DNA of 64,000 nt from Owenia fusiformis. Lineage: Eukaryota; Annelida; Polychaeta; Sabellida; Oweniidae. The stretch lies in contig CAIIXF020000008.1 of NCBI GenBank assembly GCA_903813345.2, positions 15,112,822 through 15,176,821 of the forward strand, written 5' to 3'. The notes below the pieces were generated by a model. It was not told where the DNA came from. It ran no database searches and saw only the letters and a program-made list of their open reading frames with translations. Both the position numbers and the translations under genes were made by a program. Below are positions 10,101 through 42,300 of the stretch, piece after piece; the stretch's first letter is position 1; the number at the start of each line of letters is the position of its first letter.

Positions 10101-13100
10101 AGCAAGTTGCTACTACATCCCAGTTGGGTTCGATTCCCACTCGGGCCATTGAATTTAGCACACTTTCTTTCAATTTCATTATCTGGCTTGTTAGACCTAT
10201 ACTCTCGGTCGTTAGTTATTTATTCCCCTGAGGCGCCCTCGGGTCATAACACATTAAAATGCATCCATATGCCTTTATTTATGGATCTGTCATCTGTCTA
10301 GTCATAATAATTTGAGCTATTTTGAGATTTAATAATCTTTAAAATTGAACCCTTCAATGACTGTATCATGTTCCACTTAGGTGGGTAGGTGGGTATGAGG
10401 TAGGAGGTTTTTTATACAAAGCCTAGATATTTAAATCGACCAGTATCTCAAAATGTCTGCCATCATGGACTTCGAGTGATCAGAAGTCCATGCTGCCATC
10501 AAAGGCTATGAACATTGCATCCAGTGCGTACATTTCTACATTTACAATACAGAGGCCTTATCACGCGCTCGTCGCAAGATTTGTGTTTGCGTCTGTGTTG
10601 CGTTTACGAATCGACAATTTGCACTAACTCAACTCCTGAGTTGCGTGTTATCACACGCTCGTCACAACGCAGATCGCAACTTAAGCGGTAGATTACCACA
10701 TGCGATCGCAAAAATGTAGAATTCCAACTTAATATGTAAATTGGCGGGGAAATCATATTAACTCTTTCTTTGCGTTTTTCGACTTTAGTCGAATTATTGG
10801 TACTTTGCGAATTTCGACTAAAGTCGAAAATTGAATTTAACTTTTTCAAAGTATCATAGATGTCACCCTAGTACAGTATTATGTTGATTTCCGTTTCTGG
10901 TTATTATGGGATAGATTTTCGAATCAGAATTTTCCAAATTTGATGAACATAGAGTTTATTTAGTAGATATTTATGTGTTTATATGTTTACAACTCCAGTG
11001 GCTTTTAAAAATGGCTGCCAGGAGATTCAGAGTCAATGAGGAAGATGTTGAAGCTCTATTTTTGGACTCTGATTCGGATGCAAGTGAAATTTTATCGAGT
11101 GATGATGATGATAATCAAGGTAATTTTTGATTTTCATGAAATATTTTTACAAAATAAGTACAGTAGTGATTTATCGTTCTGGGAGGGGGGGGGGGGTATG
11201 AATATCACATGGGCTCTTTAGCCTTTTGAAGACTATTGACATAGACATTGACAGTTTGCATATCTGCAAGCTGCTGTTAGTTTATCAGGCCTTTATGTTA
11301 CATATTTGTGTTCATACATGTAGGCTAATCATCTAAAAAACCTCATAATTGTTTGCAGTGCAAGATCAAGACGATAGAGCTGGTGCACAAGCCCCAGATG
11401 TTAGGGGAGATGCTGCAGCCGCACAGCCAGGACCAGCGAACCGGTACATATGGGATTGGCAGCAATATCAGCTAATGCAACCCAATGATGTTGAATGGAT
11501 AGGACAGTTTAGAAGAAGGAGGGGAGTATTAGTAGATACTGCAGATTACGAACCAGTGGATTTTTTCAAAATATTTTGGCCAGACAATCTAGTTCAACAT
11601 ATTGCTGATGAAACAAATAACTATGCCGAAATATTTTTCGATGGCCCAGATGTATTTGAAGGTCTGCCTCCAAACTCAAGATTCCGTCAGTGGAGAGAAA
11701 CTAATCCCAGAGAAATACATACATTCACTGCATTGCAGTTATCAATGGGACTCATCACTGCTCCAGCAGAAATTGATTATTGGGCTACCAATCATTGGAT
11801 CACAGACTTGCCAAACTTCCGTCGTGTTATGCCGCGGGACCGTTATTTATTACTACAGAAATTCTTACATTTTAACAACAATGAGAACCAGCAACCTCGA
11901 GACCATCCAGACCATGACCCCCTGTTCAAGATTAGGCCCCTCTTAGATATTTTGAATCCAATCTATATGAACACTTTCCAACCTGGCCAGAACTTAGCAG
12001 TTGATGAAAGCATGATAGGATTTAGGGGGCGTGTTCACTTTCGTCAATATCTACCCCTCAAACCCACCAAATGGGGAATGAAAGAATTTTGCTTGAATGA
12101 TTCTGACACTGGCTACCTCCTTGCTCATAAAATGTATACAGGAAAGGATTTGTTTCAATTAGATGATATTCAAAATGAACTTGGTGAAAATGAACCACTC
12201 ACTATGACAGAAAAAGTCGTACTCAGTCTTAGTAGACCCATATTTGATCGTAACCATATAATATTTGTTGACAATTTTTATAACTCCCCAAATCTAGCCA
12301 GAGCGCTGAAGTCACATGGCACTGGTTTATGTGGAACTGTTAAGCCTATTAGAAAAAATATGCCCCCGGAATTGAACCAAAAGAACTTAAGGTTGAATAA
12401 AGGCGATGATCCTGTTTTCATGAGGGACCAAGGATCAAATTGTGTTGCCCTTACATGGTATGATACTAAGTGTTTATCTGCTTTATCCACAGTGCATACC
12501 AATGAAATAATCGAAAAACATGTAAGGGACAGACGTGCCCCTAATGGGAGAAGAATTGCCAGAAAGCCTGTACTTGTGGATGATTATAATCAAAATATGG
12601 GGGGTGTCGATCGCTATGATCAGTTATGTTCTACTTACAAATATCCCCATAAAAACTATAAATGGTACCACCCATGCTACTTTAGAATGCAGCAAACAGC
12701 TTGTGTAAATGGATATATTTGTTACTGTGCAACTATACCCCAAAATGAAAAACCAATGGACAGTAAAAGTTTCCGCCACAAAATAATTGAGGGGTTGCTC
12801 GAGGATGTTGATTTCGCCCCGCAGATTCCTCGTGGTCGTCGTCCAAGTGTTCCACCCCCTACAAGGCTAACTGAGAGACACTTTGTTGGCCAATATGAAA
12901 ACAAATCATATAAACCTGACTGTACTGTATGTAGCAATAAAACAAGACCTGGTTGGAAAAGAAGACAAACCAACACCTATTGTAAACAATGTATGGTGCC
13001 ATTACATGCAGTTGTATGCCATGAAATATATCATAATCATAAAGATTATATTGCTGCAGCGAATAGGATAATATACCAACATAACTAAACACTCTATAAC

Positions 13101-17573: not shown

Positions 17574-20031
17574 ATGTCAGGCTGCCTCAGAAGCATCGCA
17601 GATGTCACCTCTCATTTCAATAAGCTAAACTTGGTTGCGACTAAATTTCACAGTCTGGCGCCTAACAAGTCTCCAAAGCTGTTGGCTTCAAAGCCTCCGG
17701 AGGGAGCAAGTAACTTCAGGTATAACTACAATGAAATATGTAAAGTGGAAACCTCTAGAAATTGTAAAACTCTGTTAATGGAACACTTTTCAAAGTCCCA
17801 AGACAGACTTGCCAACCTCACGTTTTTTTACGGGAATCTCCCGTAAATTTTTTGTTTTTCCGTAAAAAATACCAAACTCCCGTACCGTTTTCTCCCGTAA
17901 AAATTCCCGTAAACTCCCGTACTGTATTTCTACTAAAATCTCCCGTAATTTTTTTTAAAATATGGCCGTAAAATCTCCCGTATTTTTGCTGAAATCTCCC
18001 GTAAAATATCCCGTATTCTGGTATAACTCCCGTAAAATCTCCCGTATTCTTGGTATAACTCCCGTAAAATCTCCTGTTTTCTGGTATAACTCCCGTAAAA
18101 TCTCCCGTATTCTTGGTATAACTCCCGTAAAATCTCCCATTTTCTGGTATAACTCCCGTTAAATCTCCCATATTCTTGGTAAAACTCCCGTAAAATCTCC
18201 GTTTTTTTGCTGTCGAAATCTACCGTATTTAAAAGAAATTTGACAAATTTGTTACCTTGATTATTGCAGGCACGCTTCTTTCTTTTACTTCAAGAAGGAT
18301 TGGCTCCCATGGTTCACTATCGATACTTTCATAAATAACTTAAAAGTACTTCATTTCCATGATTCAAATTGCTTTTTTGCGATCAGTTGGGTATAAGTGT
18401 GCACACCAAATGTCCACAAACGGGGGCCAGTTCATATTCTGTCATACTTCTGTCGGGAGAATACATTTTGTTTTTATATGGTGCTAAACAAAATATTCCC
18501 ACAATATAAGGCACATTATGGGTAGGGACTGCTGTGAAATAATGAACGTGAGTGACATCTATCTTACATTATAAGTTCTAATTGATTTATTAACTGCGCA
18601 TGTGTCAAAATAATTCCAACCAATTAAATCGCTGGATTTAATGCTCATCCCGTTTTTTCAAAATCTACCGTAAAAACTCCAGTTTTTTCAGAAATCTACC
18701 GTAAAAACTCAAGTTTTTTCAAAATCTACCGTAAAAACAGCTGTTTTTCAGAAACCTATCGTAAGAACTCCAGTTTTTTCCGAAATCTAACGTAAAAACT
18801 CCCGTTCTTTCAAAATCTACCGTAAAAACTCCCGTTCTTTCAAAATCTCCCGTAAAAACTCCCGTATTTTCAAAATCTCCGGTAAAAACTCCCGTTTGTT
18901 CAAATTTTACCGCAAAAACTCCAGTTTTTTTAAATCTCCCGTAAAAACTACAGTTTTTTAAAAAATCTCCCGTAAAAACTCCCGCTTTTTTTCAAAAAAC
19001 TCCCGCAAAAACTACTGGATTTTGATAAAAACTCCCTTAAAAGTACCGCAATTTTTTTTAAATCTCCCGAAAATTTTTCATTTTAGGTTGGCAAGTCTGC
19101 AAGACCAACTAACATATGGTTAAATGAACCTCTATTAGTGGAAAACCTCCCAAGTGGAACACTTTCAGAGGTACCAAAGGTGTTCCACAGGACAGGTTTT
19201 ATTGTATAATCAGAACAAATACTGTACATAAGGAGATCTATGATACTTTTCATCTCACCGCAAGAAGTGGTGACATTGTTAGTCTCCAACTTTTTGTGGA
19301 TGTTGTTCAGCTTTCAGCTTAACAAATTAAGTCATCTGTCAAAAATGGCGGGAGGTGACACTTTGAAATGCCTGTTGATGCCTTGTATGATACAAAAACC
19401 AGCTCAATTTTGTAAAATATCAGGAATCTTTTTTAATATTGTAAAATATATTTGGGATGATTAAGTGAACTTATTAGCCGGTTGTGTATTAGTTGGATAG
19501 TCAACATATTTTTTCTCCAATACTTCTGTTTTAATACTATTTTACTACAATTTACAATCATGTATGTATAACAGGAAGTGTCAAAAACAATGAATTAAAG
19601 TATAGTCAACCTATGATTTAATGATTACATCGTTTAATGTTACATTTTTTTTCAGTTCAACAAGTGCGTCGCAACACATAATGAAACTTACTCGTATGAG
19701 AGTTGTTGACAATAGTGCTCTTGGTAAGGCTGCACAAGTAGCAGGCAAGCCTCCTAGAGTTATACACGTATATAAAAAGACAGGCATTGGACATACTGGT
19801 GACAAAGTTCTCCTTGCTATACGAGGACAGAAAACACGTGGATATATTGTAGGTTGTAAGGGTAAGCGTCATTACCCAATGAAGCCCAGATTTGACACTA
19901 ACAATGTAGTACTGGTTGATGATAATGGAAATCCACTTGGGACTAGGATCAAAGTTCCAATAGGATCACATCTTAGAGCCAATGAAGGAGACTTTACTAA
20001 ATTACTTGCAATTGCCACTAAGTTTGTTTAG
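17574..20031 (+). CDS. MRPL14: Mitochondrial ribosomal protein L14 (uL14m), 173 aa
   Basis: Large-subunit mitoribosome protein of the universal uL14 family. Exons 17574-17719 and 19656-20031 join in phase (AG|T, Ser). The first exon encodes a Ser/Lys/Leu-rich, acid-poor leader ([20 protein letters not shown]...) that fits a mitochondrial presequence. The second holds the whole L14 domain: [56 protein letters not shown], then [19 protein letters not shown]. Human MRPL14 is about 145 residues, so the leader here is somewhat longer. An acceptor upstream of 17554 implies an additional 5' UTR exon. The 1.9-kb intron holds nested transposons. Confidence 0.93.
17840..18230. repeat. CCCGTAAAATCTCCCGTA minisatellite, left block
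   Basis: Alternating units of ACTCCCGTAAAATCTCCCGT and ATTCTTGGTATA / TTCTGGTATA, with a higher-order period of about 62 bp in the best-kept part (about 18005-18180). Confidence 0.85.
18650..19080. repeat. CTACCGTAAAAACTCC minisatellite, right block
   Basis: Direct repeats of about 30 bp of the form TTTTTCAAAATCTACCGTAAAAACTCCCG, more diverged than the left block but in the same orientation. Confidence 0.8.
19264..19382. mobile_element. MITE family A copy
   Basis: AGTGGTGACATTGTTAGTCTCCAACTTTTTGTGGA... to GGCGGGAGGTGACA and TGTTGATGCC: the inverse orientation of the family described at 3574. It sits in the MRPL14 intron. Confidence 0.6.
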
Positions 20032-23910: not shown

Positions 23911-26900
23911 ATGGAGAGTCCGGACTGGCAACCCGGGGTTGAAGATTTATCTCAAAGAGCTATCAACAGAGAATCGCCCAAACATAGTAATACCTCCGAG
24001 AGTAGAAGTATTTCCTCTGATAAAACACGGAATTGCAGTGTTTGTGGCTCTCGTGCAGCGGGAGTGTTTTTCGGCGTCCTGACGTGTTGGACGTGCAAGG
24101 TATGCCAGTTCAGAATAATTTTCTGTACTTTGTCCTTGGATAATCCAACTTGCAGTGCAGCATCAGGGGCGGATCTGGGAACCAACAATGGGGGGGGGGG
24201 GGGGGGGCAAAGTTCTGGTCTAAGAAAAAAAAATGGGGCCCCTAAAACCCAAAAGTCGGCCCAAATTTTGAAATTTAGAGGCCCATTTTCTTCAAAATTT
24301 GGCCTAAAATTTAAAAATAAGGCCTTAGAAGGCCCATTTATGACCCAAAAGGGCCTGCCCCCCCCCCCAGATCCGCCAGTGAGCATTGTAATAGAGAATG
24401 TTAGATAAATTGGTTATAAATTTTGTCTCAAGATCATTTGATATTTTGATTTATTTTTTTAAACATGAGGTACCTCGTTAGTCTAAATCTATATTTCCAG
24501 CCCGTTTAATAATATCTGTCCACTTAGTAGTCCCTATTGCATTATTCAAATTTCAAATATTTTGTTATACTGATCAAGTAACAGTATTTCAAGTCCCAAT
24601 GTTTCTTGAGGCCTTCATGAGTTGTAACTCCAATTTTGATTTGCGCAATGTTTGTGCTGAGCTCACTGTGATGCCGCTGTGATTGTAACTGAAATGAATG
24701 TTTTCAGTTCATTCGTTTTTTCAGACTTTCTTCATACGCCACCAAAAAGCGGGTGCTGGTGGTTTAAAATGTGACAATAACGGTCAGTGTAAATTAGACC
24801 TGGGCGGGAAGCTGCGACGAAGATGCGCATATTGTAGATACAAGAAGTGTATTGAAGTTGGCATGCGACGTAAAGGTAAAGGCCCAAACCCCCCGAACCC
24901 CCCCCCCCCTGGCTACGCCTGTACATTTACATGCACTAGTATTGGCATGGGGCTGTTGAGATTTCATCTTTCCAATAACAATTTAAGGCAGTGGCACACT
25001 TTCACAAAAATTGGGGAAGTATGAATTGGACAACTCGCTTGTCACTGGTAGAAAGACTTTTTAATTAATCTCACATCTGTTGTTTTGAAAAAGTTATCAA
25101 ATAAGTGTTCTAACGATGAAATTAAGAATAAAAAGTTATGTTTTAAGTTTTGGATTTCCTCTGGATCTATGGGAAACAAACATAGAGTCCAAAATCCTAT
25201 GATCTGTGGCAAACATCCGCTTTGACACATATAACTAAACGGTAGTGATTAATCCAGAGTGTATGCACTGCTGCTCATACTAAATATGGAATATTAGATT
25301 CGGTAGCTCAGAATTCAAGTTTTGGAGTAAGAGAACATTTATTAGGAGTCTGTTCAGACATTGATCTTATAGGCAATTCATAACCACATATTTCATCTAC
25401 AAATCAGCATTTTTTAGAGAAAAAATATTTACATTTAAGTTTAGAAAATTACTGTTATTTAAACAGGGGTATTTTTGAATTTTTGCATTTTCAAAACACC
25501 CTGATCAAAATAAAACAGATCAGAAGATAAACTTCTGGTCATGAAGATTGAAGTGTCCTCTATCCAATGGTAGCACTAATATGCGTTATGTCCTCCTTGT
25601 GCTGCAATCAGAGCATCAACCCTACGTGACTGACCAGCTATGAATGAAACATCCGACGACCTTTTTAAGTGAAATAATGCCTGAATGCCCCATTCCTCAA
25701 TCTGAGCAGTACGTAACGTGTCTAAATTTTGAGATGGGGATCCAAGTCACGAATCTCCCTCAAACAATTCACATCCATAAAATATTCCATATTTATTAGC
25801 AACAGTGTACGTTGCCTTTTCAGAACGAGCCGCTGTAGTTGTGGCTAAGATGGGCCAGAGACTATGCTTGGTATGTGGGGACATCGCAAGTGGCGTACAC
25901 TTCGGAATAGTAGCATGTTTAGGATGCACGGTGAGTTGGTAAAATCTTTCACTTAAACGGACGTGACATTGCGAATAGTAGAGGGCGTAGCGGTGAGTGA
26001 TGCGTCAGTCACATGATCTACGGCAACTGTGCGGCGGCTGTAGCTTCCCAAAAGCAAGAGAAACATGCAGCATAAAATATAGGGATAAGCAGTACGATTT
26101 AGATTTTCCGTATCGATTTTATGAAGCTACGGCCACCGTACACCCGCCGTAGGGCAAATGTGACCGAGGCTTTACTTAAATACATGTATATCCAGTCGTC
26201 ATTTTTTATAATCTTGCATCTTTCACACTGGAAAATGAAGACGGCGACCTATGCTACACTGGGTACCAAATGGCGCCTGCCCCCCCCCCACCTCCATACC
26301 CCCACACCACATATCATCAAATTAAAACAAGCTAAGCTACATATCATCAGAAGAGGTGGAAACCATATGAAATCACTGCACGGTAATTTTTAAAGATAAA
26401 ATGTAACAAAGCAATAATTTCACTCATCAATATTTGTCAATCCGAATTCAAAACATCAACTTCAATTATATTTGCAGAAATTCTTCCGTCGTACCATTCG
26501 AATGGGAACCGAGGACTCTTACATGTGTTACAATGCACATCGCTGTGTCATCAATCCTCAAAATAGGAACACATGTCCGAGGTGTCGTCTCGACAAGTGC
26601 AAGCGTCTTGGAATGTCTCTAAATGGTATGCTTTTATCAACCGCGCATGCAAGACCCCCTCTGTATGCATTGCTCTACGGCGTACTATTTATTTATCTAA
26701 ATTGTGCTCGTTGTATTAAAACAAACACGGGATGGGACTCCAAATTGTCCGCTATGGGGATGTTATTTTTCGGTAAAAAACTCAGAAAATCTCACAATTT
26801 AAAAAACATTTGACGTCCAACAACCCTACACGTAAAAGCTAAATATTGAAAACGGCGCAAGCGTACCATACTCTAAAAGATGCATGTAGGTTTTCCTCAC

Positions 26901-29900
26901 ATGGTGAGCTCACACTTCAGGGTCCCTGGGTCTGTCAACAATTAATGGTACGTTTTAAAACCTCTGATGATTATCGTTTAAGTTATTCTGGTTTATCATC
27001 AATACACTGAAAAACACGGCATTTACATGACATAATGTCACCTTTTTACCTTGAGAAGGTCATTGAATGTCAAATCTTAAGTCTCAAGTCAGAATTGAAC
27101 TTCTGGTTTATCATCAATACACTGAAAAACACGGCATTAACATGACATAATGTCACCTTTTTACCTCGAGAAGGTCATTGAATGTCAAATCTTAAGTCTC
27201 AAGTCAGAATTGAACTTCTGGTTTATCATCAATACACTGAAAAACACGGCATTAACATGACAAAATGTCACCTTTTTACCTTGAGAAGGTCATTGAATGT
27301 CAATTCTTAAGTCTCAAGTCAGAATTGAACTTCTGGTTTATCATCAATACACTGAAAAACACGGCATTAACATGACATAATGTCACCTTTTTACCTTGAG
27401 AAGGTCATTGAATGTCAAATCTTAAGTCTCAAGTCAGAATTGAACTTCTGGTTTATCATCAATACACTGAAAAACACGGCATTAACATGACAAAATGTCA
27501 CCTTTTTACCTTGAGAAGGTCATTGAATGTCAATTCTTAAGTCTCAAGTCAGATTTGAACTTCTGAAAACTTGTAGATGATTTCGAAAACAAAGGATTGT
27601 AATCGATATGGCGAACTGAGTTTTTCTTTTAAACCAATTATTGAAAACATTCTGTAAAAACAACGTTCAATTAATTAATGGTTACTGATTGACAACAATT
27701 AAATGCGAAAATTATTTAAATATATTTTTTTATAATTGTTTTTGTTACATTTTTTTAATTTTTAGTTCAATTGTTTTTTGTTCCTTTCTATCAGTTCTTG
27801 AGAGTGAAATAAGAAGAATGAAATAAAATATCTTTCCAAACCGTATTGGAACAAAATAGCATATGCAACATTTTCTTAGACCTCTCAATATTATAGTTAT
27901 TCAAAAGATTAAAACAAAACCCCCAAAATAGATATTATTTAAGTAAACCTTTTATTTCTTGACACTTTTTTAAAATCAACCAAACTTAAGATCCAAGAAC
28001 AAAAGAAGTGCCTGGTGTGTTTTCTAAAACAATATAAAAAAAAGTATTTTTTTCAAATTAAACTGTTACCATTCAAAATATGATCATTAAATTTGATGAC
28101 TGGTTTAAGAGAAACGTGTGTTCAATTCAGTTCGCCATGTCGATACCAATCCTTTTGGTCAATTATAAGCAAGAAAAAATACATTTTGACCTTGATAAGG
28201 TCATTGAAGGTAAAATCAGATTTGAAATTCAGAGAACTTGTAGGTAGATGATTTTGAAAAAATGAACATTTGAAGCAAGTTAAAAAATACATTTTCTGAC
28301 CTTGAGAAGGTCATTGAAGGGCATATCTCAAACCTAAAGTCGGATCTGAACTTCTGAGAACTTTCTATGATCTTGAAAAAAGTGGTCCGTGAATTCGAAA
28401 CAAGTTGAAAAAAGACCTCCTTTGGCCTTTTTTTTTACCTTGAGACGGTCATTGGGGTCAAATCTCAAATCTGAAGTGGAAAAATTGGTCAATTTGAAGC
28501 AAGTTTAAAAATACATTTTTGACCATTTTATTGACCCTGAGAAGGTCGAGGTCATTAAAGGTAAAATCTCAAATCTAAAGACACGATTGAACTCCTTAGA
28601 TGATTTTGAATAAAAAAAGTCAATTTGATCTTAGAGCGCGTAGAATTATGGTCCTCTGCGGATTAGTTCTCCCATTAGTACTCTTTTTTGGCCGATTGGA
28701 TATAAGGGTATACGGAAAACAATTGTAATTAGGTCCCTGGAACAGTCAGAGAGCGGTACAGTAATCCCCGGGCGTCGAAATATTACACGCTCACCCGCAG
28801 GTTCTCTTAAAAATAACATCCCCATTATCTCAATATAATATTTTTACGAAAAATAGCACGATACCCCATAGCGGACAAATTTTGCGGTTCAGCCATGAGT
28901 AAGAGCCCTTTATGATTTTTTCACAGCAAGTAAATTTGGTCGACCAAGGAAGAAACAGAAAGAAACCGAACGAAAGCAGGACGTTGTCACATTTACATTG
29001 TCAGCCGAAAATGGAGGTCTAACTATTCTAAACGAGAAAGGATCCCGAAATGTCGATGTACTTGGTCGTATTATTGACTGTTTGATTGAGACTGATATTG
29101 CAAAGCAACGCGTATTAAATATGCTATCGCTTGCTATTAGTTCCCCAACAACATCTCCAGATGATAGGTACAGCACTATCAAGATAGGTTTCAACTTGAC
29201 AAAGCAAAACATGATTACAATGATAAACTCATTGACGCGACAAACTGACACATGTCTCTCGAAACCTAGTCAGCTTGGAGACCAACAACAATGTAAACGG
29301 CGGAAATTCGAACAGAAAATTCAAGTTCCAAATATCACCGTTGTTCCCGCGTATGAGATGACAAGCCACGCCGCTTGTTTCTCTACCGCATGGTATGTCC
29401 CTAATACCATTTGGTACAACACACCTACCACATGGTTCAGCCCACATGCCTCTCGATTCAGTCCACTCTCTACACAGTGCAGTCAAATTACCCCGCAGTA
29501 CAGCCCAAGCTCCACACGGCACAGTCAAAGTGCCTCGCCGTGCAATCCAACCTCTTCAGGGCAAAGTCTAAGTGCCTCTCGGAACAGCCTAACCTATACA
29601 TGGCACAGTCAGAGTGCCTCGCGGGACAGCCCAGTCCATACACGACACAGTCAAAGTGCCTCGTGGTACAGCCCATCCTTTACACGGTGCAGTCAAAGTG
29701 ACTCGCGGCACAATCCAATCTCTACACGGTATAGTCAAAGTGCCTTGCGGTACAGCCCTACCTCTATACGGCACAGCAGTCAAAGTCCCTCGCGGGACAG
29801 CCCAACCTCCACATGGCACACACACAGTCAAAGTCCCTCGCGGAACAACCCAACCTCTATACAGCAAAGTCAAAGTGCTTTGCGGAACAGCCCAACCTAT

Positions 29901-30320
29901 ACAGCGTACAGTCAAAGTGCTTCGCGGTACACCCCAACCTTTACACGGTACAGTCAAAGTGCCTCGCGGTACACCTCAACCTTTACACGGTACAGTCAAA
30001 GTGACTCGCGGTACACCCCAACCTTTACACAGTACAGTCAAAGTGACTCGCGGTACAATCCAATCTCTACACAGTATAGTCAAAGTGCCTCGCCATACAG
30101 CCAAACCTCTATACGGCACAGCAGTCAAAGTGCCTCGCGGGACAGCCCAACCTCCACATGGCACAGCCTAACTCTATCGAAAGACAGCCCAACCTCCACA
30201 CGACACGGTCCAATTGTCTCGCAGTACAAGCCCCATATGTCGCGAAACAACCCTACCTTTCATGAACAGTTCAGACCAATCTATTACAAATATGAACAAA
30301 ATTTCTCTGTTACTTTTTGA
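23911..30320 (+). CDS. Nuclear-receptor-like protein with two DBDs, no LBD, 662 aa
   Basis: Predicted DNA-binding transcription factor. Exons 23911-24099, 24725-24875, 25824-25930, 26478-26625 and 28927-30320 join at GT-AG sites in phase (1989 nt). DBD1 (about residues 42-110): Cys 42/45/59/62, CWTCKTFF, then Cys 79/85/97/100 and CRYKKCIEVGM. A linker of about 17 residues follows. DBD2 (about 128-195): Cys 128/131/145/148, CLGCTKFFRR, Cys 166/172/182/185, CRLDKCKRLGM, then a C-terminal extension FGRPRKKQK like an AT-hook. After about 110 unique residues the rest is about 18 copies of a 14-residue Ser/Thr/Tyr repeat and a stop. No ligand-binding domain motif is seen. Double-DBD receptors are known in flatworms, molluscs and Daphnia, but those, as I recall, carry an LBD and P-boxes CEACKK/CEGCKG. 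Two separate genes are unlikely because DBD1 has no other way to end in frame. Confidence 0.8.
24168..24380. mobile_element. MITE with GGCGGATCTGG ends
   Basis: GGGGCGGATCTGGGA on the left and CCCCCAGATCCGCCAGTG on the right, with poly-G and poly-C tracts just inside. It lies in the first coding intron of the nuclear receptor gene. ORFs on both strands here are low-complexity artefacts. Confidence 0.6.
25980..26172. mobile_element. Inverted-repeat element, CTACGGC/GCCGTAG
   Basis: GGCGTAGCGGTGAGTGATGCGTCAGTCACAT...CTACGGCAACTGTGCGGCGGCTGTAG and the inverse-like right side (GCTACGGCCACCGTACACCCGCCGTAGGGCAAATGTGACCGAGGC). It sits in the intron that splits DBD2. Similar motifs occur near 14680-14810. 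Confidence 0.45.
26991..27565. repeat. 115-bp satellite, 5 tandem copies
   Basis: Units start at GTTTATCATCAATACACTG at 26991, 27106, 27221, 27336 and 27451. Identity is very high (only a few positions vary). Each contains TTACCTTGAGAAGGTCATTG followed by AATGTCA, so it is an amplified form of the dispersed AGGTCA-type repeat. It lies in the last intron of the nuclear receptor gene. Confidence 0.95.
28180..28600. repeat. Dispersed AGGTCA-type repeat array in receptor intron
   Basis: Four diverged units of GACCTTGAGAAGGTCATTGA, each followed by a GGTAAAATCTCAAATCTAAAGTC stretch and a TTGAAGCAAGTTGAAAA stretch. TGACCT, a 5-bp gap, AGGTCA, a 4-bp gap and a third half-site recur in the same order in several units. 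Confidence 0.75.
29440..30245 (+). repeat. 42-bp coding tandem repeat (14-aa units)
   Basis: About 18 units of roughly 42 bp in the last exon of the nuclear receptor gene, typically encoding YSQSASRYTPTFTR or HSQSASRDSPTSTR. A few units have an extra codon or two. Because 42 is a multiple of three, other frames also stay open on both strands; only the frame continuous with the DBD exons is taken as coding. Confidence 0.9.
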
Positions 30321-30581
30321 GTAAGTTAAACAGTAAAATAACACATGTAAAAAATACAATAAATTATCAAAAAATAGTTTCGATCTGTCAAGCTTTATAA
30401 ATCAAGTTTTATCAATGTCATTGAAAGATGGCAGAGTTGTTTGTATTATATGATACATTCTTTTTTATTTATATAGAAGTGTCGCCATCTTTTAAATCAA
30501 TAGTATTTTAAAACATGCACTTTGTATGCATGTCCAATGATCTCTGAACTTCAAATGCTTTTTTCTGTGAGTTACTTTTTT

Positions 30582-31383
30582 CTTACCCCCCTATCACACC
30601 AAACTCGTTCTTACCCGTTCTTGCCAGTCCTACGAAAACGTCGTAAAACGGGCTCAATCTGGCTGTGGTCGGGAAATATGTCTGAAATAATTAGCTTCTT
30701 CGTTCTTAAACAGTCTTCAATACGTCCATCTCGTTCGCAGTTCGTTCAGGTCGCACCACGTCGGTGTGCAACGCCGTAGAACGCGTCCTTTAGTCTAGAA
30801 GGTCATCATGACCTGATAACAGAACGGTATGGTCGCAATCGAATTTTGAATCGATTCAAAATTCTAAAATCACATTCCCGTCTGAGAACGTTCATAAAGT
30901 TCATAAATAGACCTTATAAAGTTGCAGCTACGTTCATACCGTTCGCACACAGTTTTAAACCAGTTTTGAAGAACGCAGTGGCAACTTGTGTGGTGTGATA
31001 GCTATATTTTTGCTAACTCGTTCATAAGCAGTGTTAAATAGTTAAACCCGTTTGCAATGAGTTCTATCTCGTTCTCAACACGTCCTCAGACAGTTCAACT
31101 CGTTGTTAAAACGTCCCTAGTAGGATTGAAGTACGATGGTTCCGTTCATAGTACGTCCAGTTCGTCGTTGGTACGTTGTCACTCGTTCTAATTGTAGAAC
31201 GTGACGACCACGAGAACATTTTGAGCATTGTCTAAGTTCTAGAGGACCTACCCGTTCGAGTACGTTCGATGAAGTTTGTAAATAGATCCCAAACGGTTCT
31301 TAGTACGTCCAGTCCGTTCGTACACAGTTGAAGCCCATTTCGAGAACGTAGTGAGAACTAGTTTGGTGTGATAGTAGGGTAAG
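30582..31383. mobile_element. MITE, CTTACCC..CTATCACACCAAACT ends
   Basis: The left end (30582) and the inverse of the right end (31383) share CTTACCC, two mismatches, then CTATCACACCAAACT and GTTCT. The interior is rich in CGTTCGTACGTCCAGTT-type motifs. An internal copy of the terminal motif near 30985-31005 suggests an older dimer. Non-coding. Confidence 0.65.
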
Positions 31384-33385
31384 TTCAATATTAAAGCAAA
31401 TCAAACTTTGTGCCATAGTTGAGCTAGTGTGTGAGTAACATGTTTCAATGATAATTTTTTTTCTTCTAAATTAAGTATAGTGCCCCTTTAAGTATCTATA
31501 TTTCTAGCTTTATTAATGTCCTATATAACTTTTTAACGATAAAAACATATTACAGTTTTATATATTGTACCTAGAATACTGTAAAATCGGCACTAAAATG
31601 GCCGGCAAGCGGCCATTTTGAAAATTGGCTTTGGAGCAGAACTTCTATTCTCATAGGGTATATGTGTACGAAATATGAACAAAATCGGACCAATGGTAGG
31701 CTATTTGAGTTATCGCCCGGCGGACGGATGGACGTGTTCGACAGATGGACGGAGGGAGGCGTTCCCTATATCCCACCGACCTTCGTTCGATGGGATGATA
31801 AAATCAGACGAGGATTACCATACTTCAGATATTGTAAGGGCTTTAACGTAACGATATGGCGCTTTGAGCTAATGGGCGGCTTTCCTGGAATGGTGACAAC
31901 ACAAAGCTATTTATGTCTACATTTTTCGGTCGAGAAAAGAAACTCCGTGTACTGGTGTATGAGGATGCAGAGTCTTTTCTTGACATCGTACCCATTCTCG
32001 AAATTCATTTCGTTCGTTACTACCTTTATAAGGTAAGGTAAAGATGCACGATTGAACTGAACGAGTGTTAGGACAAGGAGTGCCACCAAACTTACTAATT
32101 CATGAAATCATAGAAGCCAAGCACAGTAACTAAGTCAACAATCGAAATTCGTGTGTTCATCAATATTTACTAAGAATGATGCCACGATTGTCGTATTCGT
32201 TGTTCCCTCTTCAAAAGAGGAGAGTATTTGTTTCAACCAAGGATTGTAAGAACTTGAAACATATTGTTAGTTTTTCAAACCGAATTAGTACATATCCTTA
32301 TTTACGTTCTTTGACAAGGATGAATCCATTTAAATGGAGAATTTGCTAAATAGATGGATAAGGTAGATGGCAGCACATGTGTTGTTAGGGCCAGAATACT
32401 ATTCAGAATGTAGAGACAACTGGAAGAAGTCAATTTATTGATTTATCAAGTATTTTCATTTGGATTAATGTAAAACTCCATTGGGCAGTCAACTAAAAAT
32501 TTTGATGACACGGGGATTGTGACAGATAAAAAATAGTGACCCTAAAAGAGGAAGTGAACTTTTAAAGATTTTTTGAACATTGAGTCTATGGGAATTTAGC
32601 CTGACCCGACCTTTTTCAGAAAACTTTATAATAAAATACTGCAAGTCTCACCAGAAAAGAGACTTTGAACAATTCAAACCTATAAAGCAAAACCTCCATT
32701 GACAAAAAGTTGGGACACATAAACTTTGGGGAATTTGTGAATAAAAAATAAAGAAAAATTAGTTTCTAGGAGTTGCATACATTAATGAAGAATCGTATGA
32801 CACAGAGCTGAAGTTGTATACAACATGCATACACGTTAATTAGATTGCCATTTCACAGGATACATTTACAACTATAGAAAACAAACTTGAGTTATAATAA
32901 CAAATATATTTATCTAAGAATTTAAAGTTTATGTACTGTTCTCTGCTTAATACATTAGCATCATGACATATATGGTATTGAAAATTTGGCTTTGGAATTC
33001 CTTATTTGAGAATGTTTTGAGGGACGTACCCCAGTGGTTGCTACATTACAAGGATAAACTTGCCACATTCCTGGAATTTAAGTCTCTGATTCATGTTCAT
33101 TCTCATAGATGGCACTATTGCCATGGATAAAACCTGCTTTCGATAACATGTAAATATTCACAAAAACCTCAGACATATTGTATCAATAGTCTTTGTAGAA
33201 GCAAAAGAAACATGTTATCCTCTACAAATCTGTACACAAGTCACCACATTTATCTTATTAAGTAGAACAAAAAGTCATAGACTTCCTTGTACTCCCAGTG
33301 ATACAGTAACTGAGTTGCACTAAGACATCAATAAATTAGATAGATTTCCTTTTACTCCCGGTAAGAAGGTACTAGACAAAAGACA
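31384..33385. other. Intergenic, receptor to BRF1 3' end; no gene seen
   Basis: No conserved protein found. About 32470-32640 resembles 43600-43760 (GGGATTTAGCCTGACCCGACC motif), another dispersed repeat. The part nearest 33385 should be the BRF1 3' UTR. Confidence 0.45.
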
Positions 33386-36300
33386 TCAATAAATTTCATC
33401 ATAGACCTCCTGGTACTCTCCATGACCAAGTAATTGAGCAGCACTTAAAGGTTCTTCAGCATCTTTTTCAAACTCATCCACCTCATCTTCATCTTGTTCT
33501 GCATCATCTGTAAATAAATTCACTCATGGATATAATTCTGGAACTATCTGACTATAGTCCACCCTGGCCAGACACTTTAAAGGACATAATTGGGGTCACC
33601 ATATTGTGCATGAGTAGGTCAATTGTAAATGTTGCTTGCAATCCAACCCACTCCCCGTGTCTGATTCTGCCTTTAAACTGTTCATCCATAAGTTATCATG
33701 TTCTTTACACGCTCTTCTTCAACAAATATTTAAACTCTCAAACCATGTCAGCAATAGTCATACTACAATATGAGAATTTAGTTCAAGTAATATAACATTA
33801 AACATTACCTTCAACATTTTCATATTGCACCGGTCCAGATTCTACGACTATCTCTTCGATGTTTGGCTTCTTTGGCAAAGGTTCATCTTGTGAAATGCTT
33901 GATCTTCTGATTCTATAAATATCCAAATATTTTTATGTGAATACATAAAAGGAAATGAATCAGAAAATGTACAGGAATGAAGATCTAATCCAGAAAATGG
34001 TAACCTCAAGGAGAAGCAGCACAACAAACAATATTATAAGTTATTACTTCCATGCCATGATACTCGTTCTCTCATTGGTCAATTAGATACCATGTGACTA
34101 AAAATTTATAACACCACAGAATCTAATGTTTGTATATTATTGAATGATTTGAAATGATTCGAGAAATTCCATATTGGAACGAGAATATCGAGAGCAGAAT
34201 ATATTCTGTATTGCACTTCAAATCATTCTGGAACGTTTTTATTGTGTGATCCTCTGTATTGCTACCGAGAATGTCCCCTCTGTACCAATATTTTCTGTAT
34301 TGCGACGGAGATGATCAATGAGGACAATCTCAGTAGCAATACAGATTGGTACAGCACAAGAACTGACCCATCAGAAGGCTTCATTTTACAGATCATACGA
34401 TAATATTGTTTCTCAAATATTTAAGTATTTTTAGTTCTAAACTGTTCACAAGAAAATAGAAAATGGCTCTTGAAGTCAGCAATGTAGTCAGCAAAACTCA
34501 ATGGAACGAATTATTCATGAATCTGAAACATGTCACAATATAAGGCATCAACATGGAAAATGTCACCACCCGCCATTTGTTATAGATGATGAAGCCGAAC
34601 TCTGACAGCTGAGTGCCGAACACTGTCCACAAAAAAGTTGGAGACAATAGCAATGTCACCTGGTGGTGACATAATAATATTGACAATCTACTATATATTG
34701 CAAATATCAATCTATTTGAACTTGAAAAGGCAAACATCTGAGGAATCTCAGAAATCTAGCCAATTTATGGTTTGGGTGGCCATTTTAAATTTTCAGGGGC
34801 ATAAATCAGAAGGAAGATACTATATAAGTGATCTACTGTAATATACCTCCCAGGATTTCAGTCAACTATATGTAGTTGTGTGATAAAATGTTCTCGAACT
34901 CTGAAACTTAGAGCCCTGGTTTGGAGTATGACTTAATAGTACCTACCTTTTTTCTGACAAAGAAGATTTTAAATGCACTGGCGTGGCCTCTAGTGACAAT
35001 CCTGGACTTCCAAATATGGACATTTCTGGCGTCTCTTCTGTGATTGGTTTTTTATCCAAACCTTTATTGAGATCTTTTAAGACATCATAGTTGATTTTAC
35101 TTGAGATTTTCTTTTCTTGTAATATCTTCTCGATAGCCTCTCTTGCAGTAGATGCCTGAATTGGCTGTTTCTTCTTGTATTTCTTTTTCTACAAAATCAT
35201 ATAAGTGGTTTTTGTGCTAAATAATGGTGCAGTAAATAGTCATATTGGTCATATTATTAAAGCATTGATGTTCTCAAATAACTGTGTCAACTCCAGTGTT
35301 CATAACTGTAACTAGCTTAAATCTGTTTAAAGCTGCTGTAGCGAACATTATTACAACTAATTTTAGATATTAGCAGAAGAAAATAAAAATAAAAAATATG
35401 ACGCAATACTACATGTAATAAAGGAGAAATGGAGCTGTTTAACATGTTTAATTATTAGAAAATTTAGTCACAATATGATCTAATGTTGATCTTTGTGTAA
35501 ATTCAAGCATTCATAAACTGTTTTTGAAGTGAATGCATACAATTTTATTCATTAATTTGTGCAGAAATAAAGGCATCAAGATTCTAAATACTAGATGAGC
35601 CAACTAAGATGTACAAGCCAATACTGTACATTGAAATTTTTGTTGGCCTACCTTTTTTAAATTTTCTGGTTTGTCTTTGTTTAGTTCTTTTTCTCTTGCT
35701 TCCCTCTCTTCCTTCTCTGCAAGAAAAATGTAGCTACATAAGTCGATATACATGTACGAGTTCATATATCATTATATATACATTTCATGCCCGCAGCCAA
35801 GGGTGTTCAAGGGGTGCAAGCAAGCCAACTTGCCAAAAAATTCTTTCAAAGTCATGCAGTTTTTAACCATTCTGAGCTCTTTTTAAGTGATTTTGGGCCC
35901 AAATAGTCATATATTAACCCCCCTCGATTTTCTTACAAGGTGACCCCTCTCCACTAGCAAAAATGAATGAAATAAACACAAGGAGCACACACGTCTCGTG
36001 GTTACGGCACCTACTTGCCAAGTTTGAACATGCTGGCGCTGAAGCCCTCTCGGCCAACTCGACAACCCCAAAAAGGGTTGTTTTGTCAGTCGATCTGACT
36101 AGAGGCAGCTGATGTTAACGCTCTAACACACCAGAGGAAGCACAAAGGACATTTCCTACACACAAGCTGGTTATGGGTCTGCATTTATTCTTTGAATAAC
36201 TAGAGTAAGAGATCAAGGTTGATTAAAGTAAGTAGTTTTCATAAATATCAACCTGCCACATTAACACTATAGGCTTGACAGTGCCAATATTATCCCGAGG

Positions 36301-39300
36301 GAAGATGGACTGCCAAAAAGTTAAGATTGCTTTATATTATGTATAGTTTAAGCATGGTCCAATTCCACACCAAAGCATTTAGACAAAAGGGTTAAATCAT
36401 ACATTTAAGGTAGAAATGCCAAAATCAAAATACCTTTTAATTCTTTTAAATAATCTGCATTAGCTGAGGTCCATATTTCAGTTTTGATTTGGACCTCTTT
36501 GGGATTGAGTATAAACCTATCAAGCTCTTCATCATCTATATCTGTCATGTCTAGAATGCCTTCATCTTCAGGTATGTCTGCAAATATACATAGTTTATAC
36601 ATCATATTATACTTTGGGAGAAGTTGACATTTTTCGACCAGGATTTTAGAAATTTGTAACTTCAACCAAAATTTTATGATACTGAAATAGAAAGCACATG
36701 GATTACCAAACATGCCAGTTAACAATAGTCTAAAATGCAATTGTACATACCTTTTTCTATACCAGGCGCCATACATTCTTCAATAGACTGATTAAGACCA
36801 AGACTTGCAGCAGTGGGAGCTGGGCCTAACAATTGTCTTGGAGTCAAGGGTTCTTCAAGCTTTGGGGGAGGCATAAGCACACTGTCCAACTTGTTCAGTT
36901 TAGTGTCATCACAGAAATTATTTTCATTGATTATTGAGTCAAGCTTAGCTTCAGAATCCGAGATCACTTCTTTAATATTACTAACAGCATCTTTACTACA
37001 TTGACTAAGTTCATCATCAAAATCACTAATAGATGGCGTTGATGAACATATACTTGACATATCATCGTTATTCCGTCCACGTTTTTTTGGCGATTCTAAA
37101 GCAAATTCTATTTGATTCTGTACAGTTTCGATTTCTTCAGTGAGTTCATGCATTTTATTTTGCTCATCAAACAGAGCTAGTTTTGCTTTTAGTTTACCCT
37201 GTGTGAAGGCAGGAGGGTCAGCCTCCTCTTCTAAGTCTATTTTGTGGAATTCATCTATTGTTAGCTGACTACTAGCTGTCATCTCAAACTCATTCAACCT
37301 GAAAACAACAGTAAGCAAGAAATAAAGAACAATGGTAATACCAAATCATCCCTGTAAATTTCAAATTAATTAAGAGAAGTGATAGAGATAGTAAAGAGAT
37401 AGTAAACCTGCCAAGCTGATGACAATATCATATTTCTTATATACATTTGTATAATAAAAATGTATGCCTTAAACCAGGAAAAGTTGGCAAAACTTGCATC
37501 ATAGACCAAAGTCTGGAAATTAAGGAAGGGGTGGTTATTTGTCATCTGTAATGTTAAGCAAATAGTGTTTGTTACAGGGCCAATTATGCCTTGGCTTAGG
37601 CTTTGAAAATGTGTTTAAATAAAGGAACCATAAAAACTTATGGAAGTTATTTGTTTTTACTTTTTTTAAATTTAATTGGGTAGGGCATGTATCTTTTCTT
37701 GACAAATGTTATGGTACATCACAATATAATCAGCTACAGTATGAATATATACTAAATATTTAAAAAAATAAAAATGGTCACATATTTAATGACCGATACA
37801 AGCTTTAAGTGGACTGCCACTTCAGTATCAGATTGCATGTAACTAGTCACTTCATGACATTAAAACATATGGGAATTTACAACTATAGTCCTGTTGTACA
37901 CAAAGAACCTTGTTGATATAAGTCTTGAATAACAAATCATTGTCCTTTTCAGTGGTATGTAATAGATTATAGTAAATATATAAAGACTTAGTTTTTAATA
38001 ATTATTATTCAAAGGGAGCAATATCTATTGGTCCGCCCTGTATGAGTATTATATATAAATTATATCTTAACCCACCTTTTTCTCAGTGTACCTTCACAAA
38101 CTTTCACAACTTTAATGATTTCTTTCATTGTCCTGTCAAAATCATGTACCCTGGCAGCTACAAACAGCGCTGTAAGAAGAAAAAATGATGCATCACAACA
38201 AAAAGTACTTATTTTGAATCAATTAAAAGGTTTTCATCAGAAAAATAAGGAATTTACAGCAATTACAGCAATTCACATACGTCAACAATCTGATAAAAAA
38301 TATTATAATTTAAGCATAAACCTTCAATAAACAACAACATGCAAAATATCACTACCTGCCATTTGTTACAGATGCCAAGTGGGAAACACCAACCACCGAA
38401 CACCAACCACTCAATGCCAAACACCATTCACAAAAAAGTTGGTAACTATAACAATAATGTCAACACTTGTGGTTGAGACATAAAAATCCATAACATTTTC
38501 TCATACCTGCTCCGCAAAGGCCAGATGGACGTCTACCAAGCCCCATCCAATCTCTTTTCATACGACTGACAAGTCTCAATGCTGTCATGGAAACCTCATG
38601 GGTTTTATCTTCAAACTCAAGTTTATGTGCAAATCTTGGAATCAGCAGACATGGATCTGAAAATAGAATAACATGTCATGAGAGAAACAAATCCAGTGAT
38701 CTTCCCAAGACCCAGAGAAGCACCAGTTTGAGATTTCAAACTTAGGCTTTCACTCGCACGAAAACATACCACTTGAAAATAAGGAAAATTGGCATATTTT
38801 GACTGAAAAAAGATCATTTTAGTAGACGAGATGTGCAGTAGAAATAATCTTAATTTACATCATTGAATATTCAAAATTCAGTGAAAGTAAAAATTACATC
38901 TGGAAAGTGGTTTCAAAAACTGTTTGTCAACTTGAAAATTTCATCTTTATTGAAAATGTGACTTCTACATACGCTATAGGTCGGGGAGATAAAATCACAA
39001 AAAGTGAAATATTTTTTATTTTATAATACCAATATTTTGTTTTACTGGACGTTGTATTTTCATTTGTATAACTATCAGACACATAAGGGTAATATTAAAA
39101 TAGATCTATTATAACTGATGGATATCCAATTTTAACAGAACTCTCTAATATATCTGCCATGTTATCCTTATCGACCCAAATTAACCCTCTGTGGTGAAAG
39201 TGGTAACTGTCTACTGACATCTGGGTTGTTGAGCCAGAATCCAAACAGAAAAAGTAAGGCATTAACAAGCAAATTGTCACCACCATTTACAGATGCCAAC

Positions 39301-42300
39301 CGCCGATCGTCAACCACCATCATAAAAAACGATGAATCAGGTTCCTCAAACAATCTACTCTGACTGAGCAGTACACATGCGTTCCTTGCACTGAGGCTTG
39401 TTTCAAGGTAGCGCACACATGACCCAAGGGAAAGATCAATACCCGGTGATTTCAGCGGGAAGTGGCGTTTCGTTCAGTGGATGAGCTGCGCGCGCACGCA
39501 TAAATGTGATTATCCAATATAATTAGGGGAGGGCTATTTGAAATAGTTTTTGGTCTCAGGCGCGACCCAGGGCTGTTGTCTTAAGGACATTTCGTTGAAA
39601 ATGAGCCATTCTGCTGATAATTGGTAAGAGTTTGCGATCTTATAATGTATAACTGTTACTCAGACACATATTTTGACACGATTCTGTTGGAAATAAGCTT
39701 TGAACCGAGAGATATTCACGATTGATATGCACATTTTTGATTGTGCCATTGCTTTTCCATTGCACAATCCATGTATTGATAGAAGAAACATTCATAATGC
39801 AGATTGGTTTACCTTCAATACATGGCAGACACTACATATCGGTCTATTAATACCAGTTTGTGCCTTAAATAGTTTTATATTTCCATCCACGGCCTGGAGC
39901 CTAGGTGTGTTTGTCTCTTATGTGTATGCTTGTGCATGGACTTCTAATCACTAGCAGAATTTAACATGATGCAAACTCGACATTATAACTCATGCTGTAA
40001 CATTTTGACTTCGCTGGAAAACAATAGGAATTATTTTTCTTGCCAATCAATCATGAACCACAATCAAAATTTCAGAATGAGCAATCAGGCAATGATCCAA
40101 ATCAAGTTATAACATTATATGATATTCAGCAAGAAGTCCGGTAGAAATACAGAATATTTAAACATCAAAGCTGAAAGTTAAAAGCTAATCTGTCAATTTT
40201 CTGTCTGCAAAAGAGCGTTTACATTTGACACAATAACAGACTGAGGCTTTGAAATCTAGGATTCCCCAGGAAAATATGACGTCATACTAATTAGCATAAG
40301 GATTTCCCTATTGGTTTGGGTCGAGCCTTGTTCGAAAACACAATCCATAAATACATGCTAATTTCTAAGGAGATAGGAAGTGTATAACGTGTTTATCGAT
40401 TTTGTTTAAATATTTAATCAATTATCAAATTGTTTAAGTGGATAAAGTGGTCACACTTGCTTCAAATCATAGCGAAATCGACGGATAGAAACTGACCGAA
40501 TTCCCGATATCCTACCCCGTATTACTGTAGGCTATAAGCACAGTGACCTACAGAGGGCGCTATCACAAACAAGTACTGCACGAACCGATAAATTCCCGGG
40601 TATTGTAACGCCCTTGCATGACCTAGCTAGGTGGGGTACAATGTACTTTTTTGCACTTTTTTGTGGTAACATAATAAAAAAGCACTTCATAAGCTTTCAA
40701 CATAGGATAGGCCTACCTAAATTCTGATTTCATGGTTAACTGTATAACAATTTTAGACCCTGCAGTCGCAGTGGGGTTTCCAGTTTTATGTAGTTAAAAC
40801 ATCACATAAAGTGAGTTGAATAATGTGTTCTTAACTTAGATGGCAGCACTGGCAGTGGCATTGTGGGATATGTGCCATTAATAACAAAGATGGCTAACAT
40901 TATTATCAGAATTTTTGTGTAGCTGAAAATTATCAAGTTTCTACATAAAATCATGGCACAAATAAGGTAAATTCTAAAAATATTTTGATCCAAGATCACC
41001 TGCTCAAATATGACCGCATATCTCATACCATAAATCAACAAAATTGTGAAAAAACGGGGAAAACAAGATCTAATTTTGACATCCAGGGGCCAAAAAATTT
41101 TGTTCCAAAATTATTGAAATTACATAATAGACAGGTTCCAATTTCAGAATATCTCAAGGGAAAGACTTTTTGAGGCATTTTTTAGAAAAAGCAACAGACC
41201 TATTTTTTCTGGATCAGTTTTTCATGCTGATAAAGATATTAAAAGATGACAGCTCAACGGGGTGGTCACGACACTGCATTTTAGCGTTTTTACCCCCCTA
41301 GGAAATTATCTTAGGGGGTACTATAATATTAGTTCATAACTCAAAGGATATATAAACTATTGTTCTGAGTTCTACAGCATACATTGTTAGTACAGAGATG
41401 AATACTATCCTAAAGTTATAGGTTGATATCTTTGTTGGTTTCGGAAAAATACAATTAATTAGAAAAATATGCAATTTTTGTCATTTTTTCTTGCTTATTT
41501 TATATTTGTAGCTTCAAGCAAAATATGGTAACTTTAACAGCTCAAAGTAGTATTCTAACAACATTCTCAAGCTATGTTTGATATTGTAATACATCTATTA
41601 TAGTGATGAAGTACTATTTTGTAATTTTAATATGACTTTATAATGCCCTACCCCTGGTAAATAGAAGAAAGTTGGTGTGGTTTTCTTCTGGTTTTAACAT
41701 TTTATTGACTTCTTAGTTGAAGATACAATCAATTCTGTCAGTTAACCATGAGTAGCTTTACAATGGTTAACTATTCCCATGAATAGAGGGTTGGGACCTC
41801 AAAAATACCAGAACTGTTAAGTGGCATCCTTGGGCATCCCTCTTCAGAGCATTTTCCTTATACTCCGATGAGGGGGATACTATAAGAAACCTATCTAAGA
41901 TACTAATGAAGATACTGAATTCAAATTTTCAGGATTTGGTCCTGGTATGATAGGTAATCTGTATGACAAAAATGACAAAAAGAAAAAACTCTGTTGCCAT
42001 AGTAACAAGAATACCACACTATTTGTTTCCTAAGAAATGTGTTTTAAGAGGTTTTGTCATTCTCTTCATATTTTTAATTCTAAATATGTCTACAATGTGG
42101 GATGATTAGAAGTATGGTAAAGTAATCTTTTCTATTGTTTTATTGTTCTCTAAAACAGAAGTTGCTAAGGCACATAGATATAGATCATAGAAAAAATGCT
42201 GGGATGATCGCTCTATTTGTCAGGAAATTAAAATGGAAACTGAAAAATGAGTTTCTTCCCACTGAATAGCAATTAATTTGGTAGACCATGGCTGACACGC

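Follow-up and report, generated by a model that had tools for sequence, protein, structure and literature searches.

A gene for a nuclear receptor with two DNA-binding domains, most likely of the 2DBD-NRB group, and no recognisable ligand-binding domain in the annelid Owenia fusiformis

Nuclear receptors with two tandem DNA-binding domains (DBDs) make up the 2DBD-NR family (NR7), for which we follow Wu & LoVerde 2023 (PMC10497141). According to this paper, such receptors are also found in annelids, brachiopods, rotifers, echinoderms, amphioxus and nematodes. They have two complete C4 DBDs and a single ligand-binding domain (LBD) with Ti and AF-2, and the linker between the DBDs has 17-22 residues in most members. 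In flatworms, the receptors reportedly form homodimers by means of their LBDs. In group B (2DBD-NRB), a G-box of the form KXGR(P/H) follows a 5-residue pre-Grip, and the P-P module is LPCKS-EGCKK, in which residue 5 of the DBD2 P-box is K; the annelid NRBs are printed with divergent DBD1 P-boxes. For Owenia fusiformis, two receptors are listed, one NRA1 and one NRB2. The paper also describes the G-box of NR1D1 as a minor-groove DNA-binding surface (PMC10497141). A separate class, NR0, is defined in the nomenclature text that we draw on by one of DBD and LBD being missing, whatever the kinship (PMC4070562).

We analysed a stretch of 64,000 nucleotides on contig C8 of the Owenia fusiformis genome, which we call the window, and we searched the whole genome as well (498 Mb in 525 contigs). 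As the original prediction had it, five exons at 23911-30320 on the plus strand join in phase into one reading frame. Its 662 codons contain no stop and no frameshift, and the TGA ends at 30320 (Table 1). All four introns begin with GT (donors GTATGC, GTAAAG, GTGAGT and GTATGC) and end with AG. In the 662-residue protein, Pfam finds zf-C4 alone, in two stretches (E 2.7e-40), and no other domain up to E 10. In the genome profile search, the match of exon 1 is weak (C8:15136852-15136926, E 0.0875), and that of exon 3 (E 9.4e-5) extends into the intron. Each DBD retains its full set of eight zinc cysteines. The predicted pair of complete C4-C4 domains is there, as are the P-boxes CWTCKT (DBD1) and CLGCTK (DBD2), the GRPRKK extension and the spacing of about 17 residues (17 if counted from GM in DBD1 up to the first Cys in DBD2). 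One oddity is finger 2 of DBD1, which has X11 and not X9; it is the sole such row among the 38 of 39 DBDs from this genome that could be parsed.

Table 1. Features of the gene and its surroundings (positions in the window)
Feature	Position	Strand	Description
Exon 1	23911..24099	+	N-terminal region; DBD1 finger 1 (P-box CWTCK|T)
Exon 2	24725..24875	+	DBD1 finger 2; ends after GM+3, phase 1; zf-C4 E 1.2e-6
Exon 3	25824..25930	+	linker; DBD2 finger 1 (P-box CLGCT|K)
Exon 4	26478..26625	+	DBD2 finger 2; ends after GM+3, phase 1; zf-C4 E 1.8e-8
Five 115-bp tandem repeats	26986..27565	+	in intron 4, taken as non-coding; 97% matches
Exon 5	28927..30320	+	C-terminal extension (CTE), unique region, heptad tail, stop
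CTE / G-box SKFGRPRKK	28929..28955	+	aligns through the CTE with NR1D1 (1a6y)
Unique region	28956..29432	+	without recognisable domain
Ser/Thr/Tyr/Pro/Gln-rich tail	29433..30317	+	295 aa, about 39 heptads, 42-bp DNA unit
Possible polyadenylation signal AATAAA	30358..30363	+	read from sequence

The double DBD itself is not new. A new lineage-specific receptor class had been proposed for this gene, and of that proposal, the architecture and the missing LBD stand, but the new class does not, because the linker of 17 residues, the G-box KFGRP, the 5-residue pre-Grip and the receptors printed for Owenia all point to 2DBD-NRB. The linker lies at the lower end of the 17-22 range, although the boundaries used in the paper may differ from ours. 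The CTE reads GM-SLNAS-KFGRP (KFGRPRKK in full), which fits both the pre-Grip and the G-box rule; this is a short motif, and the spacing of 5 residues is found in NR1D1 too. The P-P module reads WTCKT-LGCTK and so departs from LPCKS-EGCKK, with the fifth residue K of DBD2 kept. The P-boxes had been said to match no known 2DBD form; they do differ from the printed NRB module, and divergent DBD1 P-boxes are reported for annelid NRBs (PMC10497141). The G-box together with the K at position 5 of the DBD2 P-box leads us to favour group B, and we think that the gene is most likely an Owenia 2DBD-NRB. Since the Owenia list prints one NRA1 and one NRB2, and the other two-DBD gene of this genome is an NRA (see below), it is probably Ofu2DBD-NRB2 (CAH1791723), as judged by the printed list and rules. 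It shares with this group the tandem DBDs, a linker within 17-22 residues, the pre-Grip, the G-box and the K at position 5. Three things are unusual: no LBD was recognised, the P-boxes have changed, and the last exon encodes about 39 heptads rich in Ser and Tyr. We found no two-DBD receptor without an LBD in titles and abstracts, although the supplements of PMC10497141 may show one.

Searches of the genome with zf-C4 gave 66 matches at E 0.001 and 86 at E 10. We grouped neighbouring exons by hand and counted two exons 56 kb apart (L023 and L024) as one gene. Among the matches listed, this gives 37 zf-C4 genes with 39 DBDs, a census that could miss a diverged DBD. Just two of the 37, again among the matches listed, have two DBDs: the gene in the window and another at C8:9507581-9544467. 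The latter has the P-boxes CEACKK and CEGCKG, the G-box RIGRQP and LBD exons that end in LFTEMFLND, which is the printed NRA pattern, so from its sequence we identify it as a canonical 2DBD-NRA that has an LBD; it lies on the chromosome that also carries our gene.

The two genes have the same four DBD introns, in position and phase: one interrupts each P-box behind its fourth residue, and one follows each DBD after GM+3, in phase 1. Because these introns are frequent in other receptors of this genome, they support common descent but do not prove it. Both linkers have 17 residues. From FF to finger 2, each DBD1 has a spacing of 12 and each DBD2 one of 13, values that occur in 6 and 3 of the 38 parsed DBDs (the row for L043_44 did not parse). 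Also, P-box residue 5 is K in just two of the 39 DBDs, namely DBD1 of NRA and DBD2 of the window gene. On the other hand, the window gene differs from NRA in its P-boxes and its G-box, and NRA has an LBD whose end looks like an AF-2. Trees of the DBDs (69 columns, with long branches) do not pair the window DBDs with their NRA counterparts and give no support for either pairing; in AU tests, the pairings are neither rejected nor shown (p 0.178 and 0.347). The end branches of the window DBD1 (4.11) and DBD2 (3.02) are the longest and third longest of 39 in the tree. By pairwise score, NRA DBD2 ranks third of 36 for the window DBD2, and NRA DBD1 ranks 19th of 36 for the window DBD1.

The sequence supports the claim that the gene has no recognisable LBD: none was found by profile, by a query with the LBD of NRA, by a half-signature or by inspecting open reading frames. 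These are genome-sequence searches of limited reach with one positive control. Profile searches with zf-C4 and Hormone_recep-type models gave zf-C4 twice and, for PF00104, no match at the locus. The genome has 29 matches to PF00104, all of them behind 20 of the 37 zf-C4 genes (among the matches listed), and the model also misses the LBD of the sister 2DBD-NRA, so its negative result for the window gene proves little alone. The NRA-LBD query recovers its own four exons and has no match in the window. It also has four weak matches near other receptors (E 0.15-1.9), and since these are the only other loci that it reaches, a very divergent LBD could escape it. A first half-signature failed on the positive control, and we discarded its zero result. 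A relaxed version finds the NRA LBD and matches twice more, by chance, within the 20 kb scanned there; at 26626-33500 on the plus strand, its sole match is in intron 4, with stops close by. Plus-strand open frames of at least 45 codons at 30.2-36.5 kb include none that looks like an LBD by eye. None of these searches showed an exon beyond 30320 that would supply an LBD. The NRA exon that holds the CTE, the hinge and the start of the LBD corresponds to exon 5 of the window gene by phase and CTE, and exon 5 reaches its stop without an LBD. The LBD thus appears to have been lost or replaced from within exon 5 on, and we infer a loss rather than a primary absence. At the level of the genome sequence, then, no counterpart of the single LBD with Ti and AF-2 of the 2DBD-NR definition could be recognised in the gene, which falls under the definition of NR0.

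What exon 5 encodes instead resembles no domain that we could find. At 28929-29400, from the start of the CTE on, no PDB chain matched up to E 10, and a single-sequence AF2 model (mean pLDDT 40.3) was too poor for use. The open frame of exon 5 matched no Pfam model at E 0.01. In the tail, 36 of the heptads are exactly seven residues long, and the three of irregular length still keep the reading frame. The heptads alternate between two types, near RYSPTST and RHSQSAS, and TRF reports 18.4 copies with a period of 42 at 29447-30233. The periodicity of the protein is real (identity 0.20 at lag 7, with a shuffle maximum of 0.17, and 0.42 at lag 14). The tail has 17 SP/TP and 20 SQ/TQ pairs, 27 basic residues and 9 acidic ones, and is presumably disordered. 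A codon test on 35 of the 39 heptads (leaving out the three irregular ones and one that was unclassified) gave dN/dS of 0.88 and 0.48 for the two heptad classes. This test is weak, as one class scores lower in a shifted frame (dN/dS 0.53) than in the real one (0.88). A second reading frame of the array is also open. A genome search with the tail DNA, in which simple repeats are skipped, gave one match, the tail itself. The protein sequence of the tail has 9 weaker matches at other places, which we take as compositional. Single heptads look like those of the Pol II CTD. Nevertheless, the identity to YSPTSPS is within the range of composition shuffles: the mean of the best 20 is 3.45/7 (shuffle mean 3.22, maximum 3.6, 1000 shuffles), and 8 windows have at least 4/7 identity (shuffle mean 4.2, maximum 11). 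As the resemblance does not go beyond composition, we do not claim kinship with the CTD.

How might such a protein work? DBD2 with its CTE has NR1D1 (1a6y) as its best PDB match (E 2e-19). NR1D1, or Rev-erb, has a single DBD, the P-box EGCKG and an LBD. Receptors with a zf-C4 DBD and no LBD exist as well, namely the Knirps group (NR0A) and ODR-7; they resemble the window gene in this respect, but they have one DBD and unrelated C-termini and belong to other lineages. We propose that the window protein acts without ligand. DBD2 and the G-box would anchor it on DNA, as described for the CTE of NR1D1, and DBD1, tethered 17 residues off, would read a second site. Because DBD1 is tethered to an anchored DBD2, the covalent tether could replace dimerisation of the LBD type. 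P-box residues set the half-site, and EGCKG is expected to read AGGTCA. The changes relative to EGCKG (E to W and E to L at the first residue, and K to T in DBD2) predict some other half-site. The Ser/Tyr-rich tail may take the place of AF-2 as an effector surface. A ligand-independent DNA binder, with tethered DBDs standing in for LBD dimerisation, seems to us the most likely function. From a natural 2DBD receptor that lacks the LBD, one could learn how two tethered DBDs act by themselves and whether a tether replaces dimerisation.

Overall, we consider it quite likely that this is a 2DBD receptor (NR7; most likely group B and probably Ofu2DBD-NRB2) that has lost its LBD. The gene could instead be decaying or relaxed, with its LBD lost, its P-boxes eroding and a tail that is just a functionless minisatellite read through. 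The long end branches of both DBDs, the nearly neutral codons in one heptad class and the second open frame would fit with this. But decay is hard to square with 662 uninterrupted codons, GT-AG at every intron, 16 retained zinc cysteines and irregular heptads that preserve the frame, so we think it unlikely. Another concern is that an LBD was overlooked: exon 5 might be one alternative 3' end, with another isoform splicing to LBD exons downstream. Given how insensitive PF00104 is in this genome, and that the NRA-LBD query found just 4 other receptor loci, and weakly, this deserves consideration. Yet the LBD exons of NRA are plain open frames within about 9 kb of its DBD2, and in the window, the NRA-LBD query, the half-signature scan (save for its intronic match) and the open frames downstream were all negative. 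Also, minus-strand open frames, which we take as the 3' part of a TFIIB-repeat gene, begin at about 33.4 kb. We regard a missed LBD as rather unlikely.

It is also conceivable that the two-DBD layout is convergent and that the gene is not a 2DBD-NRB, with DBD1 recruited from a divergent LBD-less zf-C4 lineage such as L009 or L010 (described below). In the tree, the window DBD1 does cluster with L009 (87/58) and L010 (77/87), but this grouping was flagged as a long-branch join, and if both are left out, DBD1 moves beside L036/L037/L039/L043 (93/68, not starred). The DBDs of L009 and L010 are each a single exon without the P-box intron, whereas the linker length and intron pattern of the window gene are the same as those of NRA. 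We find convergence unlikely. Finally, a receptor without an LBD can compete with paralogues for sites, and the window protein might occupy and damp sites of 2DBD-NRA, with which it shares a genome and a two-DBD layout; this would be compatible with its being a 2DBD-NRB. But its P-boxes differ from CEACKK/CEGCKG of NRA at base-contact positions, so shared sites are not expected, and a role as competitor seems quite improbable. We therefore keep to the reading of an NR7 receptor that lost its LBD.

Two other zf-C4 genes may have had a similar history. At C8:25315742-25317841 (plus strand; L009/L049), a DBD exon with the P-box VPCER could be spliced, in phase 1 and with the frame kept, to an exon 0.6 kb downstream on the same strand, which has nine C2H2 motifs in 428 codons (zf-C2H2 E 5.8e-25 by Pfam); PF00104 has no match behind it. 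At C12:18051100-18061490 (minus strand; L010/L050), a DBD exon with the P-box SSCAH could likewise be joined in frame, in phase 1, to an exon that lies 1.2 kb further downstream on its strand and is open for at least 2977 codons. A loose pattern picks out 27 C2H2-like motifs in this exon, and Pfam support for it is weak, below the cut-offs. The locus on C8 is an apparent receptor-DBD/C2H2 chimera. However, as the phase would fit by chance one time in three, the DBD and C2H2 exons might belong to separate genes. We found no literature on receptor-DBD/C2H2 fusions. Our broader proposal is that the window gene encodes a constitutive LBD-free factor with two tethered DBDs, in a genome where divergent receptors with non-canonical P-boxes have repeatedly exchanged the LBD that follows the DBD and its closing phase-1 intron, for a heptad tail here and for C2H2 fingers at two other loci, C8:25.3 Mb and C12:18.06 Mb (in all, 3 of 37 zf-C4 genes). 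This is tentative and could well be wrong. If the chimera pattern holds, these would be repeated natural experiments, in one genome, in turning hormone receptors into ligand-free factors.

We noticed some other features along the way. At C4:19792576-19794630 (minus strand; L011/L048), a 109-bp unit repeats in tandem (16.9 copies within L048), and it includes what seems to be a splice acceptor together with the first part of the exon for finger 1 of a zf-C4 gene that we take to be tailless-like. In intron 4 of the window gene, ttgaccttgagaaggtca-like stretches related to the 115-bp repeats run on to about 28.6 kb. Elsewhere in the window, an L14-type ribosomal protein gene lies at 19606-20031 on the plus strand, and the TFIIB-repeat gene on the minus strand is presumably BRF1-like. 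A 579-codon open frame at 11349-13088 (plus strand) has a piggyBac-type transposase domain (DDE_Tnp_1_7, E 8e-82), and open frames at 17818-18991 on the minus strand consist of tandem GDFxxTGVFT-like repeats. The window also includes a BTB-BACK-PHR gene, a short piece of whose protein recurs on the opposite strand (39168-39473 on the minus strand and 47067-48158 on the plus strand).
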